Assembly: GCF_013340305.1 (NCBI RefSeq)
Contig: NZ_BLVP01000005.1
Location: forward strand, 62,001 to 126,000
DNA from: Desulfovibrio psychrotolerans
Lineage (GTDB): Bacteria > Desulfobacterota > Desulfovibrionia > Desulfovibrionales > Desulfovibrionaceae
Direction of reading: 5' to 3'
DNA: 64,000 nt
The position numbers and the translations under genes are program-made. Below the pieces are notes generated by a model. The model worked only from the letters and a program-made list of their open reading frames with translations. It was not told the DNA's origin and searched no databases. Positions 27,573 to 38,015 of this stretch are shown piece by piece; the first letter of the stretch is position 1, and each line of letters opens with the position of its first letter.

Positions 27573-28982
27573 ATGAACCTTACCCCCGTCACACGTACAG
27601 AAACCGACAGCATGGGACCGGTACAGGTTCCGGCAGACCGCTACTGGGGTGCGCAGACCCAGCGCTCGCTGCACTACTTCGCCATCGGCAGCGATCGCAT
27701 GCCGCATGAGGTCATTCTCGCCTTCGGTCTGCTGAAAACAGCCGCCGCCCGGGCCAACAAAGCGCTGGGCAAACTCGCTCCAGACAAGGCAGACCTCATC
27801 ATCGCCGCCGCCCGCGAGGTCGCGCAGGGCAAACTTTCCGATCACTTTCCGCTGCATGTCTGGCAGACAGGCAGCGGCACCCAGACAAACATGAACGTGA
27901 ACGAGGTCATCGCCAACCGTGCCATAGAAATGGCGGGCGGCACGCCGGGCAGCAAGCACCCCGTACACCCGAACGACCACGTGAACATGTCTCAGTCGTC
28001 CAACGATACCTTCCCCGCCGCCATGCACATCGCCGCCGCCCTCACCCTCACGCGCACCCTCATTCCTGCCGTGCGCTATCTGCGCCTCGCCCTGCAGGAC
28101 AAGGCCGCCCGCTGGGACCATATCGTCAAGATAGGACGCACCCATCTGCAGGACGCCGTGCCCATGACGCTGGGGCAGGAATTTTCAGGCTATGTGGCCC
28201 TGCTTGATGAAAATCTGGAACGCATGGAAGCCGCCCTGCCCCACCTCATGCGGCTCGCGCTGGGCGGCACGGCCGTGGGCACTGGGCTGCACACCCATCC
28301 GGAATTCGCCCCCGCCGCCATAGCAGACATCGCCGAAGAAACAGGCCTGCCCTTTGTACCCGCCCCCAACTACTTCGCCGCGCTTTCCGCCCACGATGCT
28401 GTTGTCATGACCTCCGGCACCCTGCGCACACTTGCCGGTTCCCTCATGAAAATAGCCAACGACATCCGGTGGCTGGCCTCCGGTCCGCGCAGCGGCATCG
28501 GCGAACTGGAACTCCCCGCCAACGAGCCGGGGTCCTCCATCATGCCCGGCAAGGTAAACCCCACCCAGTGCGAAGCCCTGACCATGGTTGCCACGCAGGT
28601 CGTGGGGCTGGATACCGCCGTGGCCATGGCGGGCGCACAGGGCCATTTTGAGCTTAATGTCTTCAAACCGCTCATGATACACAACCTGCTCACCTCCATG
28701 AACCTGCTGGCAGACGCCTGCCGCTCCTTCACCGACCACGCGGTAAAAGGGCTTAAGGCAGACGAGGCAGCCATCGCCCGCCATGTGGAGGCCTCGCTCA
28801 TGCTGGTCACGGCACTCACGCCGGAGATAGGCTACGACAAGGCCGCACAGGTGGCGCACACAGCCCACACTCAGGGAACCACGCTCAAGGCCGCCTGCCT
28901 TGCGCTGGGCTATCTCACGGAAGAACGGTTCAACGCCATCGTGCAGCCCCTCGCCATGGCCAAACCGCACCAGGCCCCATAG
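27573..28982 (+). CDS. fumC: Fumarate hydratase, class II
   Basis: This is an iron-independent fumarase interconverting fumarate and L-malate in the cytoplasm. The 469-residue length is normal. Superfamily landmarks are [18 protein letters not shown] near 108, [20 protein letters not shown] near 130, the active-site helix [19 protein letters not shown] near 189 and the signature [17 protein letters not shown] near 320. The substrate-specific regions match FumC rather than aspartase or argininosuccinate lyase, although aspartase cannot be fully excluded by eye. GAGGAG precedes the start. A convergent terminator follows. Confidence 0.92.
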
Positions 28983-31238: not shown

Positions 31239-33062
31239 TTAATACAGCTCGCCGGGATGCAGTTCGTCATCCAGCTCGCCCTGCCGCTTAAGCAGCTGTT
31301 CAAGCTGAATATCCGCCCCTATCACGCCGGTTATGTTGTCATTCTCATCCGTCACGGCGGCGGAAACCGTAAGGATGAGCTTGCCGGTAAAATAAGAGGA
31401 ATACATGTCCGTAATATGCAGCTGCCCGGTACGCATGGGCTGGATGAACCACGAACGGTTGGAGAAGTCATACCCCGGCGCAAGGTCGGCATACTTGTGC
31501 TTGTTTGTCTCGTCCGTAATTTCCGCCGCGATAAGCCTGCCCTTGTTGTCCGTAAGGTACAGGTACTGGATGAAGGGGTATTCCTGCGCAAATTCCTTCA
31601 GGCAAAGCTGGTTTTCCTTGCCCAGACGGATTTCGCACTCCTCGGAAAGCCGCACGATAAGGTGCGCGGCAAGGTCGTTTGCCACCGCCTTCAAATGGTC
31701 GAAGTCAGAAGCAAAGAGCTCCGGCATGTACCGCTTGACCAGCTTGATCATTTCCTTATTGGAGAACGAGGTGTTACGCCCCTGTTCGTAGGCATGCATA
31801 ATGCGGTCGTAAATCTTGCCCACGGCGGGATGCTTCTTGGAAACCTGCTTTTCCTCAGGCACCTTGAGGTACTGGTTAATCCAGTAGGCCACCCCTGCCC
31901 GGCCCGACTTGTCGGTAATGATAATGGGCACGGAGCGGTTCAGAATCTTCCGGGTATCGAAGATATTGTATATTTCCTCGTTCTTGGCCAGCCCGTCCAC
32001 ATGTATGCCCGCGCTGGTGGCGTTAAAGTCCTTGCCCACAAAGGGATAGTTGTCCGGAATGTTGTATGAAAGCTCTGTTTCAAAATACTCGGAAACAGCG
32101 GCAATCATCTGCGTGTTGGCGGCGTCATCTTCTCCCGTCAGGGATATGTACTCAATAATCAGCGCCTCAATGGGCGTGTTGCCGGTGCGCTCGCCAAAGC
32201 CCAGCAGGGTTCCGTTCACCCCCGCACAGCCGTAGAGCCACGCGGTAACGCCGTTCACCAGCGTTTTATGAAAGTCGTTGTGCCCGTGCCATTCCAGCCA
32301 CTGCCCGGGAACCCCCGCCTCGTCCGTAAACGCCCGCACAATGCGGGGAACGGAGCGCGGCAGCGTCGCACCCGGATACGGCACCCCGTAGCCCATGGTG
32401 TCGCACAGGCGAATCTTGATGGGCAACCCGCTCTCCTTGGAAAGCTCCATGAGCCGCTCGGCAAAGGGCAGGCAAAAACCATGTATGTCGGCGCGGGTAA
32501 TATCCTCAAAATGGCAGCGCGGCGATATGCCCCACTCCAGCGCCTGTTCCACCACATCCAGATAACTGCGCATGGCCCGTTCGCGGTCCAGCCCCAGCTT
32601 GAGATACAGATGGTAGTCCGAAACCGAGGTGAGCATGCCCACTTCGCGGAACTCCATGTCCTTGGCGATCTTCAGGTCGTCCTTATGGGCGCGTATCCAG
32701 CCTGTTATCTCCGGATACTTGTATCCCTTGGCACGGCACGCCTCTATGGCGCGGCGGTCTTTGTCGGAATACATAAAGAATTCCGAAGCGCGAATAAGCC
32801 CGCTCATGCCGCCCAGCTTATGCATAAGCTCAAAAATGGTCTCAATCTGCTTCACCGTGTAGGGCGGCCGGGCCTGCTGCCCGTCACGGAAGGTGGTATC
32901 CGTTATGAACATGGGGTCCGCAGGCCGGGGCATAAGAAAAATATCGTCAAAGGCGATACGGCTCACCTTGGTGTACGGAAACAGCTCGCGGTACAATTCC
33001 GCCTTTTCGGGGTTATCCAGAATGTGCTTGGATGTGGCCCGGTTCAAATGCAGCAGACTCAT
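31239..33062 (-). CDS. DRE-TIM acyltransferase (homocitrate/isopropylmalate synthase-like) fused to a C-terminal Cache-like sensor domain
   Basis: The first about 400 of 607 residues resemble the homocitrate/isopropylmalate synthase family. The catalytic motif TTFRDGQQ gives Arg59 and Asp60, metal ligands HGHND are at 259-263, GERTGN is at 290-295, and AGIHVDG and KSGR fall at 351-357 and 385-388 as in the synthase subdomain. The residues needed for catalysis therefore look intact. Instead of the LeuA allosteric domain, a region from about 440 to 595 carries Cache/PDC hallmarks: FIQYLYLTDNKGRLIA, YDFSNRSWFIQPM, then KLILTVSAAVTDE and GVIGADI. No signal peptide or membrane span is present, so the sensor is cytoplasmic. 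The ATG at 33062 overlaps the upstream stop (ATGA) and follows AAGGAGGG. The substrate is unknown. Confidence 0.85.
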   Translation of the reverse strand: MSLLHLNRATSKHILDNPEKAELYRELFPYTKVSRIAFDDIFLMPRPADPMFITDTTFRDGQQARPPYTVKQIETIFELMHKLGGMSGLIRASEFFMYSDKDRRAIEACRAKGYKYPEITGWIRAHKDDLKIAKDMEFREVGMLTSVSDYHLYLKLGLDRERAMRSYLDVVEQALEWGISPRCHFEDITRADIHGFCLPFAERLMELSKESGLPIKIRLCDTMGYGVPYPGATLPRSVPRIVRAFTDEAGVPGQWLEWHGHNDFHKTLVNGVTAWLYGCAGVNGTLLGFGERTGNTPIEALIIEYISLTGEDDAANTQMIAAVSEYFETELSYNIPDNYPFVGKDFNATSAGIHVDGLAKNEEIYNIFDTRKILNRSVPIIITDKSGRAGVAYWINQYLKVPEEKQVSKKHPAVGKIYDRIMHAYEQGRNTSFSNKEMIKLVKRYMPELFASDFDHLKAVANDLAAHLIVRLSEECEIRLGKENQLCLKEFAQEYPFIQYLYLTDNKGRLIAAEITDETNKHKYADLAPGYDFSNRSWFIQPMRTGQLHITDMYSSYFTGKLILTVSAAVTDENDNITGVIGADIQLEQLLKRQGELDDELHPGELY

Positions 33063-33847
33063 ATATTCTGTACCCTCCTTGGGGAATTGGTCAGGAGCAT
33101 GGCCTCGGCGTCGGCAAGGCACCGTTTGGCCCGCGTGCATGCAGGATTAAGCCGCACGCCCTCGGTGGCAGCACGGTGCGCCTCTTCCGGGCGGCCGCAC
33201 TCCATCAGGCCTTCGGCGGCCAGAATGTACATACGCTCGGGAACATCCTCATACACGCTTGAAATCAGCGCCTCATACCGGGGGCCGAACACGGCACGCA
33301 CCAGTTCGTTGCGGTCAAACAGCAGGCGCGCCAGCAATCTGTTTCCGCCATGCCGGGCATAATAGATACATATAAGCTCCCGGCATTGCTCAAGAATAAA
33401 TTCTATCCGCCGCACTTCCCGCTCAATGCTCTGCCGCGTCTGGGTAAGCACCTCAGAAAGCGGGTCGCCCAGCCCGCGCACTTCTGCGTAGCCTTCGTGC
33501 TGCTGCAGGGTACGCAAAATGGGGGCATAGTGCTGTTGCTGGTAGGCGTCTTCCTTCAGCTTTATGCACTCATGAAATATATAGCCAAGCGCCCAGTCCA
33601 GCATCTTTGCCGTCACGTGGTCGTCCTGCCCGGTGCGGAAAAGATGATGTGCCGTGTCCTTGAGACGCCACAGAAGCCCCTTGTTCATCATGGTGCCCAA
33701 AAGGTCGCTCATGGTGGCAAAGCTCACCGCCCCGGTTTCTTCAAACCGGGCAAACTGCTCTTCCAGCACCTTGGTCGCCATGCAGAAATCCCGCATGACG
33801 TCACGTGTAAACTCGTTCCTGTTGGCTTCAATCCAGCGTCTGGACAT
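33059..33847 (-). CDS. Unrecognised cytoplasmic helical protein coupled to the DRE-TIM/Cache gene
   Basis: The 262-residue protein is mostly alpha-helical by composition, with no signal or membrane span. It opens MSRRWIEANRNEFTRDVMRD and contains a charged helical stretch near 130-165 (QTRQSIEREVRRIEFILEQ). Its last about 60 residues (RMYILAAEGLMECGRPEEAH) look like one or two tetratricopeptide-type helix pairs. No family was recognised. Its stop overlaps the next start by four bases, so the two products are probably made together and may interact. A GAGGAG ribosome site and a plausible promoter at 33871-33899 precede it. Confidence 0.75.
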   Translation of the reverse strand: MSRRWIEANRNEFTRDVMRDFCMATKVLEEQFARFEETGAVSFATMSDLLGTMMNKGLLWRLKDTAHHLFRTGQDDHVTAKMLDWALGYIFHECIKLKEDAYQQQHYAPILRTLQQHEGYAEVRGLGDPLSEVLTQTRQSIEREVRRIEFILEQCRELICIYYARHGGNRLLARLLFDRNELVRAVFGPRYEALISSVYEDVPERMYILAAEGLMECGRPEEAHRAATEGVRLNPACTRAKRCLADAEAMLLTNSPRRVQNI

Positions 33848-35332: not shown

Positions 35333-35345
35333 AAGGGATTTGGGC

Positions 35346-35374
35346 TTGACAAAACGGGTACTTCCCAATAGCAA
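35346..35374 (+). promoter_or_regulatory. Sigma-70-like promoter candidate for dsrABD
   Basis: A perfect TTGACA at 35346-35351 is followed after 17 bases by TAGCAA, a poor -10. It is the best -35 in the gap and lies 184 bases upstream of dsrA. Confidence 0.5.
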
Positions 35375-35534
35375 GGGAGTACTTTGTCCAAAAAATCACG
35401 TGACCTCGGTGCAGGTTACAAGACCGGTTCCTGCACACGTACGCACGACCACGCAGCCCGACCAGAATCGCCAATGGGCGTGCGTGGACTGTCTGGTTTT
35501 GAACTTAAACCATACCATTTGTGGAGGTAAGGCA

Positions 35535-36848
35535 ATGGCGAAACATGCGACTCCCAAGTTGGACCAGCTCGAATCCGGGCCGTGGCCCAGCTTCGTGTCC
35601 GACATCAAGCAGGAAGCCGAATCTCGTGCCAAGAACCCCAAGGGTCTTGACTACCAGATTCCCGTGGACTGCCCCGAAGACCTTCTGGGCGTTCTCGAGC
35701 TTTCTTACAACGACGGTGAAACCCACTGGAAGCACGGCGGCATCGTGGGCGTTTTCGGTTACGGCGGCGGCGTTATCGGCCGTTACTGTGACCAGCCCGA
35801 AAAGTTCCCCGGCGTGGCGCACTTCCACACCGTCCGCCTGAACCAGCCCTCGGGCAAGTACTACACCTCCGAGTACCTGCGTGCCCTGTGTGATATCTGG
35901 GACCTGCGCGGTTCCGGCCTCACCAACATGCACGGTTCCACCGGCGACATCGTTCTGCTCGGCACCACCACTCCCCAGCTGGAAGAAATCTTCTGGGAAG
36001 TGACCCACAACCTGAACACCGACCTCGGCGGTTCCGGTTCCAACCTGCGTACCCCCGCAGACTGCCTGGGCGAAACCCGTTGCGAATACGCCTGTTACGA
36101 CACGTCGGCTCTCGCTTTCGAGATGACCAACGAGTATCAGGACGAACTGCACCGTCCGGCGTTCCCCTACAAGTTCAAGTTCAAGTTCGATGGCTGCCCC
36201 AACGGCTGCGTTGCCGCCATCGCACGTTCCGACTTCTCCGTCATCGGCACCTGGAAGGACAGCATCAAGATCGACCAGGCCGCCGTTAAGGCGTATGTTG
36301 CCGGCGAATTCAAGCCCAACGCAGGCGCCCACTCCGGCCGCGACTGGGGCAAGTTCGACCTCGTCAAGGAAGTTGTGGAGCTGTGCCCCTCCGAAGCCAT
36401 TACTTGGGACGGCGCAAAGCTCACCATCGACCGCAAGGAATGCGTGCGCTGCATGCACTGCATCAACACCATGCCCCGCGCCCTGCGCATCGGCGATGAA
36501 CGCGGCGCCTCCATCCTCTGCGGTGCAAAGGCTCCCATTCTCGACGGCGCTCAGATGTCCTCTCTCGTGGTTCCCTTCGTGGAAGCACAGTCTCCCTTCG
36601 ATGAAATCAAGGAAGTTGTTGAGAACATCTGGGACTGGTGGATGGAAGAAGGCAAGAACCGCGAGCGCCTCGGTGAGACCATGAAGCGTCTCTCCCTGCA
36701 GAAGCTGCTTGAAGTTACGGGCCAGCCCGCTGACCCCCGCCACGTCATGGAACCCCGCCACAATCCCTACATCTTCTTCAAGGAAGAAGAAGTACCCGGA
36801 GGTTGGGACCGCGACATCACCGAATACCGCAAGCGCCACCTGCGCTAG
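35535..36848 (+). CDS. dsrA: Dissimilatory sulfite reductase alpha subunit
   Basis: The alpha chain of DsrAB, the cytoplasmic enzyme that reduces sulfite in sulfate respiration, is 437 residues, the normal length. The siroheme-linked cluster cysteines fall at 177 and 183 (CLGETRC) and 221 and 225 (CPNGC), the same numbers as in D. vulgaris as I recall them. The inserted ferredoxin domain carries CVRCMHCINTMP around 302-313 with a further Cys in ELCPSEA. GGAGGTAAGGCA precedes the ATG at 35535. dsrB follows after 21 bases with its own GAGAGGAG site. Base composition is like the other highly expressed genes in the window. Confidence 0.98.
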   Translation: MAKHATPKLDQLESGPWPSFVSDIKQEAESRAKNPKGLDYQIPVDCPEDLLGVLELSYNDGETHWKHGGIVGVFGYGGGVIGRYCDQPEKFPGVAHFHTVRLNQPSGKYYTSEYLRALCDIWDLRGSGLTNMHGSTGDIVLLGTTTPQLEEIFWEVTHNLNTDLGGSGSNLRTPADCLGETRCEYACYDTSALAFEMTNEYQDELHRPAFPYKFKFKFDGCPNGCVAAIARSDFSVIGTWKDSIKIDQAAVKAYVAGEFKPNAGAHSGRDWGKFDLVKEVVELCPSEAITWDGAKLTIDRKECVRCMHCINTMPRALRIGDERGASILCGAKAPILDGAQMSSLVVPFVEAQSPFDEIKEVVENIWDWWMEEGKNRERLGETMKRLSLQKLLEVTGQPADPRHVMEPRHNPYIFFKEEEVPGGWDRDITEYRKRHLR

Positions 36849-36869
36849 TCAAGAGAGGAGTACTAAACA

Positions 36870-38015
36870 ATGGCATTCATCTCTTCCGGATACAATCCCG
36901 CGAAACCCATGGAAGGCCGTATTACTGACATCGGCCCCCGTGATTACAACGACTTCCTGCCGCCCGTCATCGCCAAGAACAAGGGTAAGTGGGCATACCA
37001 CGAAATCCTTGAGCCCGGCGTACTGGTCCACGTGGCCGAATCCGGCGACAAGGTGTTCACCGTCCGTGTCGGCGCAGCCCGTCTGATGTCCGTCACCCAC
37101 ATCCGCGAAATCTGCGAAATCGCAGACAAGCACTGCGGCGGCCACCTGCGCTTCACCACGCGTAACAACGTGGAATTCATGGTGGACGACGAATCCAAGC
37201 TGGCAGGCCTGAAGGCTGACCTTGCTTCCCGCAAGTTCGCCGGCGGCTCCAACAAGTTCCCCATCGGCGGAACCGGTGCCGGCATCTCCAACATCGTTCA
37301 CACCCAGGGTTGGGTTCACTGCCACACCCCCGCTACCGACGCCTCCGGCCCGGTTAAGGCGATCATGGACACCGTGTTCGATGACTTCCAGAACATGCGT
37401 ATGCCCGCCCCCGTGCGCATCGCACTGGCCTGCTGCCTGAACATGTGCGGCGCCGTGCATTGCTCCGACATCGGCGTTGTGGGTATCCACCGCAAGCCCC
37501 CGATGATCGACCACGAGTGGACTGACCAGCTGTGCGAAATCCCGCTGGCCGTTGCCTCCTGCCCCACCGCCGCAGTTCGTCCCACCAAGGTCGAAATCGG
37601 CGACAAGAAGGTCAACTCCATCGCTATCAAGAACGAACGCTGCATGTACTGCGGTAACTGCTACACCATGTGCCCCGCCCTGCCCATCTCCGATGGTGAA
37701 GGCGACGGACTTCTCATCATGGTCGGCGGTAAGGTTTCCAACCGTATCAGCCAGCCCATGTTCTCCAAGGTTGTTGTGGCTTACATCCCCAACGAGATGC
37801 CCCGCTGGCCTTCCCTCACCGAGAAGATCAAGCACATCATCGAAGTGTACGCCGCCAACGCACGGAAGTACGAGCGTCTGGGCGAATGGGCCGACCGCAT
37901 CGGCTGGGAAAAGTTCTTCGAACTGACCGGCCTTGAGTTCACCCACCACCTCATCGACGACTTCCGCGATCCTGCTTACTACACCTGGCGTCAGTCGACC
38001 CAGTTCAAGTTCTAA
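36870..38015 (+). CDS. dsrB: Dissimilatory sulfite reductase beta subunit
   Basis: The 381-residue beta chain binds the catalytically active siroheme and a coupled [4Fe-4S] cluster. The coupling cysteines lie in [15 protein letters not shown] near 186-200. The ferredoxin domain shows [15 protein letters not shown] near 259-273, with a partner cysteine in the upstream ASCPTAAV. It follows dsrA directly, in the order expected for the alpha2-beta2 enzyme. A hairpin lies in the 68-base gap to dsrD. Confidence 0.98.

Follow-up and report, generated by a model that had tools for sequence, protein, structure and literature searches.

Gene and domain architecture of the locus

The window considered here is the whole stretch of 64,000 nucleotides that was analysed, and the gene under study occupies positions 31239 to 33062 of its minus strand. 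It encodes 607 amino acids plus a stop codon; the product is a Cache-fused synthase of the homocitrate/isopropylmalate family, predicted to be a Re-citrate synthase. The ORF caller sets the start 26 codons further upstream than position 33062; since the frame is open for just 609 codons in six relatives from the same genus, we place the start at 33062 or directly beside it. An upstream ORF of 262 amino acids (33059 to 33847, minus strand), which has no Pfam or NCBIfam match, ends at 33059, and its stop overlaps the ATG of the synthase in a 4-bp ATGA, so that the two are probably co-translated. Other ORFs can be recognized in the window: a class II fumarase (27573 to 28982, plus strand; TIGR00979, 738.9 bits, cut-off 664.75), a further TCA gene, which lies some 2 kb away from the synthase next to a LysR-type regulator, and two ORFs (35340 to 38015, plus strand) that by eye resemble dissimilatory sulfite reductase A and B and thus fit a sulfite/sulfate-reducing host.

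The catalytic part is an HMGL-like TIM barrel at residues 53–324 (32091 to 32906, minus strand), delimited by Pfam (HMGL-like, 107.6 bits with a cut-off of 29), by the alignments and by the fold match of the full-length model. An earlier note on this DNA had quoted the catalytic motifs as intact, and all of them are found in the minus-strand translation of 607 residues: R59-D60, HGHND at 259–263 and GERTGN at 290–295. Residues R59, D60, H259, H261, E291 and N295 are invariant in alignments of 16 and of 56 rows. The full-length AlphaFold2 model, calculated with 56 rows (the protein itself and 55 of the best 80 loci, those with complete frames and ATG starts), has a mean pLDDT of 89.9 and a pTM of 0.76; its matches are homocitrate and isopropylmalate synthases, of which 6ktq is the best. 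The profile, the R-D and HxH motifs and the fold all place the protein in the DRE-TIM / HMGL family of homocitrate and isopropylmalate synthases, as had been proposed. The barrel is followed by post-barrel subdomains at residues 325–446 (31725 to 32090, minus strand), which contain DKSGRAG (384–390) and GR.TS...EM; the SGR subdomain is thus kept, with a weak, sub-threshold match to HCS_D2 at 348–409 (17.1 bits, cut-off 27). Relatives that have no further domain end near residue 446, after these subdomains.

The remainder of the protein is a Cache/PDC domain at residues 448–591 (31290 to 31721, minus strand), recognized by Pfam, by the structure models and by Foldseek. Two Pfam families match above their cut-offs: dCache_1 (residues 448–591, 58.8 bits, cut-off 45) and MCP-like_PDC_1 (residues 490–590, 53.1 bits, cut-off 27). 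The segments in which a Cache/PDC pattern had been noticed at first reading, YDFSNRSWF (531–539) and GVIGADI (579–585), fall inside both. Because only positions 34–156 of the 240 in the dCache_1 profile are matched, we regard the domain as a single PDC unit. A predicted ligand-pocket stretch extends over residues 536–584 (31311 to 31457, minus strand), based on alignment with PctA and KinD and on conservation. Cache domains are normally sensing domains on the outside of bacterial receptors. The synthase does not have the layout of such a receptor, with an extracytoplasmic domain behind membrane spans: its highest 19-residue Kyte-Doolittle mean is 1.03, which bears out the earlier statement that there is no membrane span.

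Fold and putative ligand pocket of the C-terminal domain

The C-terminal region modelled alone (51 rows) has a pLDDT of 86.6 and a pTM of 0.81, and consists of a long helix (453–475) and a second helix (482–494), followed by a PAS-like sheet. In a Foldseek search with this model KinD comes first (E = 6.5e-10), followed by WalK, Tlp3, PctC, YkuI, PctA and further sensor domains; the best 50 matches are chiefly Cache-type sensor domains, going by entry titles or by the known nature of the proteins. A sequence search with the domain likewise recovers KinD, Tlp3 and PctA. Both dCache_1 and MCP-like_PDC_1 match 53 of the 56 aligned relatives at E ≤ 0.01 (the alignment includes three Cache-less rows from Bacillota, presumably the three that do not match), and the YkuI_C profile matches 5 of the 56. 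The C-terminus thus belongs to the Cache/PDC superfamily both by profile cut-offs and by predicted fold. Its structure had been singled out beforehand as the point on which the Cache proposal would stand or fall, and the best solved match is the Cache sensor KinD. That the C-terminus is instead a LeuA-type regulatory domain of the usual sort, or that its fold is unrelated to Cache and the Cache pattern arose by chance, seems exceedingly improbable. LeuA_dimer (PF08502), the domain of LeuA-type allosteric synthases, has no match in the synthase, compared with 121.3 bits in the LeuA (L002) and 77.5 bits in the CimA (L005) of the same genome, and on this ground we reject an ordinary LeuA regulatory domain; profiles, C-terminal model and Foldseek agree in putting a Cache fold where these two paralogues carry the LeuA domain. 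An unrelated fold is rejected, as far as a prediction can do so, by the Foldseek matches to Cache sensors, and the matches of the aligned relatives to Cache families also argue against it.

The predicted pocket residues are R536, W538, F539, Y554, S556 and D584. In the alignment R536, W538, Y554 and D584 correspond to R126, W128, Y144 and D173 of PctA, and F539 and S556 to Y129 and D146, which, placed by PctA numbering, we take to be ligand residues as well. W538, F539, S556 and D584 are invariant (51 of 51 rows), R536 is kept in 46 rows and Y554 in 42; a seventh position, 531, equivalent to PctA Y121, varies (Y in 9 of the 51 rows). Therefore six of the seven positions equivalent to the PctA pocket are kept in 42–51 of 51 rows. 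The mean conservation of all seven is 0.85 versus 0.56 for the domain, a value that random sets of seven columns reach in 0.05% of draws. Some of the conserved pocket residues may be structural and not related to a ligand.

A more general form of this reservation is that the enzyme is a Re-citrate synthase whose Cache fold is purely structural, serving dimer or tetramer formation or stability, with no regulatory ligand. The long N-terminal helix of the Cache model is in keeping with such a role, as this helix often serves dimers in PDC domains; moreover, the catalytic part is intact in relatives that lack the Cache domain, which is thus dispensable for the fold. Yet the PctA-pocket positions, first of all the four invariant ones and R536, are kept beyond what a scaffold alone would need, and we consider a purely structural domain rather unlikely. 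We therefore prefer a ligand-binding Cache domain. Of the PctA residues, R126, W128, Y144 and D173 are named as ligand residues in excerpts of PMC10104139. The full dCache_1AA pocket motif (Y121, R126, W128, Y129, Y144, D146, D173) is not present in the synthase: it is incomplete because S556 stands for D146 and the Y121 position varies, and for this reason the label of dCache_1AA amino-acid sensor would be too strong. The alignment also shows that KinD shares R and YSS with the domain. KinD has a pyruvate-bound structure (4jgp, by entry title) and is classed as a carboxylic-acid-binding dCache in excerpts of PMC8694187; by analogy, the ligand class is likely to be a small carboxylate or an amino acid.

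Metabolic role and distribution of the fusion

On genome content, gene neighbourhood and published accounts of the class, the gene is most likely that of a Re-citrate synthase. The protein stays under every curated NCBIfam synthase cut-off; its best matches are NifV and LEU1_arch, with LeuA near (for NifV, 133.6 bits versus a cut-off of 462.9). A search of its own genome for Si-citrate synthase (PF00285) gave no match, with a positive control in 13 of 14 named genomes. The genome contains two aconitase-family frames (PF00330) of 430 and 726 amino acids, of which the shorter lies near LeuA and is probably its LeuC, as well as an NADP-isocitrate dehydrogenase (L069, 551.4 bits, cut-off 490); all lie on contigs other than that of the window. 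Searched with the synthase, the genome yields three other synthases: LeuA (L002) and the citramalate synthase CimA (L005), both above NCBIfam cut-offs and with LeuA_dimer, and L004, which is nearest to NifV, stays below its cut-off and has no LeuA_dimer. Since aconitase-family and isocitrate dehydrogenase genes are present and no Si enzyme was found, a citrate maker is needed, and the synthase is the free candidate for it; it would fill the citrate gap in the way expected of a Re-citrate synthase. We take DVU0398 to be the Re-citrate synthase gene of Desulfovibrio vulgaris; no mention of DVU0398 was found in the open-licence literature searched. Desulfovibrio vulgaris is named as a user of this enzyme in excerpts of PMC12016533, and anaerobes that lack the Si enzyme are described as using Re-citrate synthase, a relative of homocitrate and isopropylmalate synthases, in excerpts of PMC12016533, PMC8027424 and PMC8542988.

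Gene neighbourhoods were collected for the best 80 loci of the contig search, with ORFs grouped by BLAST. Downstream of the synthase, on the same strand, 18 of the 80 loci have an ORF of the isocitrate dehydrogenase type, an aconitase-family ORF, or both (10 loci); the isocitrate/isopropylmalate dehydrogenase type occurs in 14 and the aconitase family in 14. Two of these ORFs as called overlap the end of the synthase, and the counts are lower bounds, as many loci stop at contig ends. The lineages concerned are Desulfovibrionaceae, Syntrophorhabdaceae, Nitrospirota (one case, L105, grouped by BLAST only), Elusimicrobiota, Omnitrophota and Auribacterota. NCBIfam classification covered 10 of the 34 downstream ORFs, from six loci. 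Aconitate hydratase is above cut-off in L125 and L135, and NADP-isocitrate dehydrogenase in L097; isocitrate dehydrogenase is the best match, below cut-off, in L076, L125 and L126; the dehydrogenase of L129 is below all cut-offs. The aconitase-like gene of L076 exceeds the cut-off of an unspecific 'hydratase' model and not that of an aconitase model, and the one of L097 is of the two-subunit aconitase/homoaconitase/isopropylmalate isomerase type. The neighbourhood with aconitase and isocitrate dehydrogenase that is expected of a Re-citrate synthase is thus found at the loci of relatives, and the gene has no such neighbours in the window. On the upstream side, in the same orientation, an ORF that by eye resembles aspartyl-tRNA synthetase is seen in 33 of the best 80 loci and one resembling histidyl-tRNA synthetase in 21; these loci (within L083–L139) are mostly from Desulfobacterota.

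A Cache-regulated enzyme acting on a different 2-oxo acid, as a homocitrate, citramalate or isopropylmalate synthase, would agree with the top NCBIfam scores of NifV and LEU1_arch and with homocitrate synthases being the best solved relatives. Those scores, however, lie far under the cut-offs, the LeuA and CimA roles are already filled by L002 and L005, the genes that follow the synthase in relatives encode isocitrate dehydrogenase, with aconitate hydratase encoded at L125 and L135, and the genome would otherwise be left with no citrate synthase match; we judge a different substrate to be quite improbable, and retain Re-citrate synthase. Of the picture given in the earlier note, the synthase family, the Cache fold and the soluble nature of the protein stand; its open-ended 2-oxo acid substrate is narrowed to that of a Re-citrate synthase as the most likely one, and the architecture is not a peculiarity of one genome.

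The relation to the Si enzyme was also followed in a sample of 395 genomes of the phylum, own genome included, in which the synthase was counted at E ≤ 1e-60. The synthase is found in 195 and PF00285 in 213 of these genomes; both occur together in 41, versus 105 expected, and neither in 28. If 14 PF00285 matches that are weak (E > 1e-60) are left out, the figures become 199 for PF00285, 38 for both (98 expected) and 39 for neither. Fisher p-values ignore relatedness and are replaced here by a tally of families: among the 100 families of the phylum with either enzyme, 52 have only the Si enzyme, 26 only the Re enzyme, 18 are mixed, and 4 have both in every genome sampled. In seven of the mixed families (f1, f25, f40, f50, f72, f78 and f100) the two enzymes never occur in one genome; f1 is the family of the window itself, and the PF00285 matches are weak in f25, f78 and f100. 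Family f1 also contains genomes whose catalytic part, over the columns used for the tree, equals that of Fundidesulfovibrio agrisoli and that of an uncultured Desulfovibrionaceae bacterium, so that the host belongs almost surely to the Desulfovibrionaceae. No exclusion is seen in Bacillota (299 genomes, the phylum of L144), with the synthase in 31, PF00285 in 96 and both in 8, where about 10 are expected. PF00285 is also present in 4 of 8 genomes checked through their loci (L126, L130, L138 and L145). Excerpts of PMC8542988 describe Omnitrophota MAGs as never having both citrate synthases; unlike these, L126 lies in an Omnitrophota genome that carries the two together.

Judged from sequence, the fusion is widespread and not peculiar to the genome studied here. 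An accident of assembly or annotation in one genome is excluded because 26 of 39 genomes, the one studied here among them, have a match that extends into the Cache part; this count leaves out G019 (match without the Cache part) and includes G037 (match ending at residue 543, where its contig ends). It is further excluded by the best 80 loci, of which 68 have complete frames of at least 580 amino acids, the remaining 12 being truncated, broken, masked or without the Cache part. A tree of 95 family rows contains 85 with and 10 without the Cache domain. It omits 7 of the 80 loci on account of breaks, truncation or missing starts, and takes 21 of 59 near-relative loci (L006–L064), including all six complete Cache-less ones; as these rows were selected, the ratio of 85 to 10 is not a frequency. 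In this tree, calculated by a quick method, the 10 Cache-less rows need 4 changes, of which strong branches force only one. By their record labels, the Cache-bearing rows among the matches listed come from nine phyla, most of them as metagenome bins: Thermodesulfobacteriota and other 'Deltaproteobacteria', Nitrospirota, Spirochaetota, Elusimicrobiota, Omnitrophota, Lentisphaerota, Fibrobacterota, Auribacterota and Margulisiibacteriota. The 36 Bacillota matches, in 31 genomes, are without Cache, and none of them extends past query residue 460; four Bacillota genomes (G592, G619, G644, G717) have two or three domain-less copies each, 41–52% identical to the query. In the phylum of the window, domain-less forms of 449–465 amino acids occur at L054, L057, L058, L059, L061 and L062, and provide natural controls for the role of the domain; in the search of the phylum, every match listed reaches residue 592 or beyond. 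The plasmid collection gave only two distant matches, from Deinococcus (residues 22–443 and 31–442).

Proposed regulation and comparison with known systems

The explanation that we favour for these observations as a whole, with a probability of about 0.65, is a Re-citrate synthase tuned by a cytosolic, ligand-binding Cache domain. By family knowledge, the enzyme would condense acetyl-CoA and oxaloacetate to citrate on a homocitrate synthase fold, presumably with Re stereochemistry. It would replace the missing Si-citrate synthase and so form the entry to the branch that leads through citrate, isocitrate and 2-oxoglutarate to glutamate. The single PDC/Cache unit, facing the cytosol, may bind a small carboxylate or amino acid, with R536, W538, Y554/S556 and D584 as contacts, and may report a pathway product to the active site, as the C-terminal domains of LeuA and of the RAM-bearing homocitrate synthase suggest by analogy. 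As to the ligand, our guess is feedback inhibition by what the branch finally yields, either glutamate or 2-oxoglutarate. The broader proposal is that anaerobes of some nine phyla control the entry of carbon into the oxidative TCA branch by allosteric switching of Re-citrate synthase, the switch being a cytosolic Cache domain that senses an internal metabolite such as glutamate, 2-oxoglutarate or some other small acid; it is one that we hold at slightly better than even odds.

Each half on its own belongs to a known family, and it is their combination in one soluble metabolic enzyme for which no description was found in the literature searched. The Pfam models of both halves match above cut-off, and for that reason domain databases will list the architecture implicitly. 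The earlier note knew of no described enzyme regulated in this way; in the open-licence literature we likewise found none that joins a Re-citrate or isopropylmalate synthase to a Cache domain, and an earlier mention elsewhere is possible. Searches of the same literature for citrate synthase, Cache domain and enzyme gave only unrelated animal studies, those for intracellular Cache domains only matches unrelated by title, and no account of the regulation of Re-citrate synthase in anaerobes was found in its excerpts. A receptor-type Cache domain on a citrate-making enzyme is probably a so far undescribed control of central metabolism. If true, it extends Cache domains to the direct control of a metabolic enzyme and turns a receptor domain into a feedback regulator of a core one. 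A conserved sensor domain makes the regulation of Re-citrate synthase directly testable in a sulfate reducer, and the fusion offers a signature by which a large group of genes can be recognized from sequence; the member in the window lies under every curated synthase cut-off.

The closest known enzyme is the Re-citrate synthase (presumably EC 2.3.3.3) of the Clostridium kluyveri type, reportedly the subject of Li et al. in 2007. According to excerpts of the literature, it belongs to the same homocitrate/isopropylmalate family and is used by anaerobes without Si-citrate synthase. In excerpts of PMC12016533 and PMC8027424, Re-citrate synthase is said to feed an incomplete oxidative branch to 2-oxoglutarate. 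The fusion differs from the Clostridium kluyveri type in that the Bacillota relatives end at the catalytic part, and the excerpts contain no mention of a Cache extension. LeuA and CimA share the catalytic family and have a ligand-binding domain at the same C-terminal place; here LeuA_dimer (PF08502) is replaced by the unrelated Cache/PDC fold. The Sulfolobus acidocaldarius homocitrate synthase, the best full-model match (6ktq, whose title specifies catalytic domain and dRAM), carries a C-terminal RAM and is a precedent for a swapped C-terminal regulatory domain in this family; RAM and Cache are different folds.

As for the sensor half, Cache domains are described in excerpts of the literature as extracellular sensors, and those of the amine and purine types are said to form part of chemoreceptors, kinases, cyclases, phosphodiesterases and phosphatases. 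The fold is common to KinD (4jgo, 4jgp), PctA, PctC and Tlp3, with R and YSS of KinD and R, W, Y and D of PctA aligned to the domain; these proteins are extracytoplasmic and mostly have two PDC units, whereas the synthase has a single unit on a soluble enzyme. An intracellular location is in itself not unique to the Cache-like domain of the synthase, because soluble or inner-facing C-terminal precedents are found in YkuI and in a chemoreceptor of the same genome. This chemoreceptor (L003 / L172, contig C5 near 43 kb, outside the window), the only match to the Cache part elsewhere in the genome when searched with the synthase, has N-terminal hydrophobic stretches (by eye) and MCPsignal, followed by a C-terminal, presumably cytosolic PDC (MCP-like_PDC_1, 35.7 bits, cut-off 27); further MCP-like_PDC_1 matches occur in frames of 723 and 703 amino acids (L170 and L173, contig C6). 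YkuI, an EAL protein found among the Foldseek matches, is cytosolic and has a C-terminal Cache-like domain (YkuI_C) on a soluble protein, but it is a signalling protein, unlike the metabolic enzyme described here.
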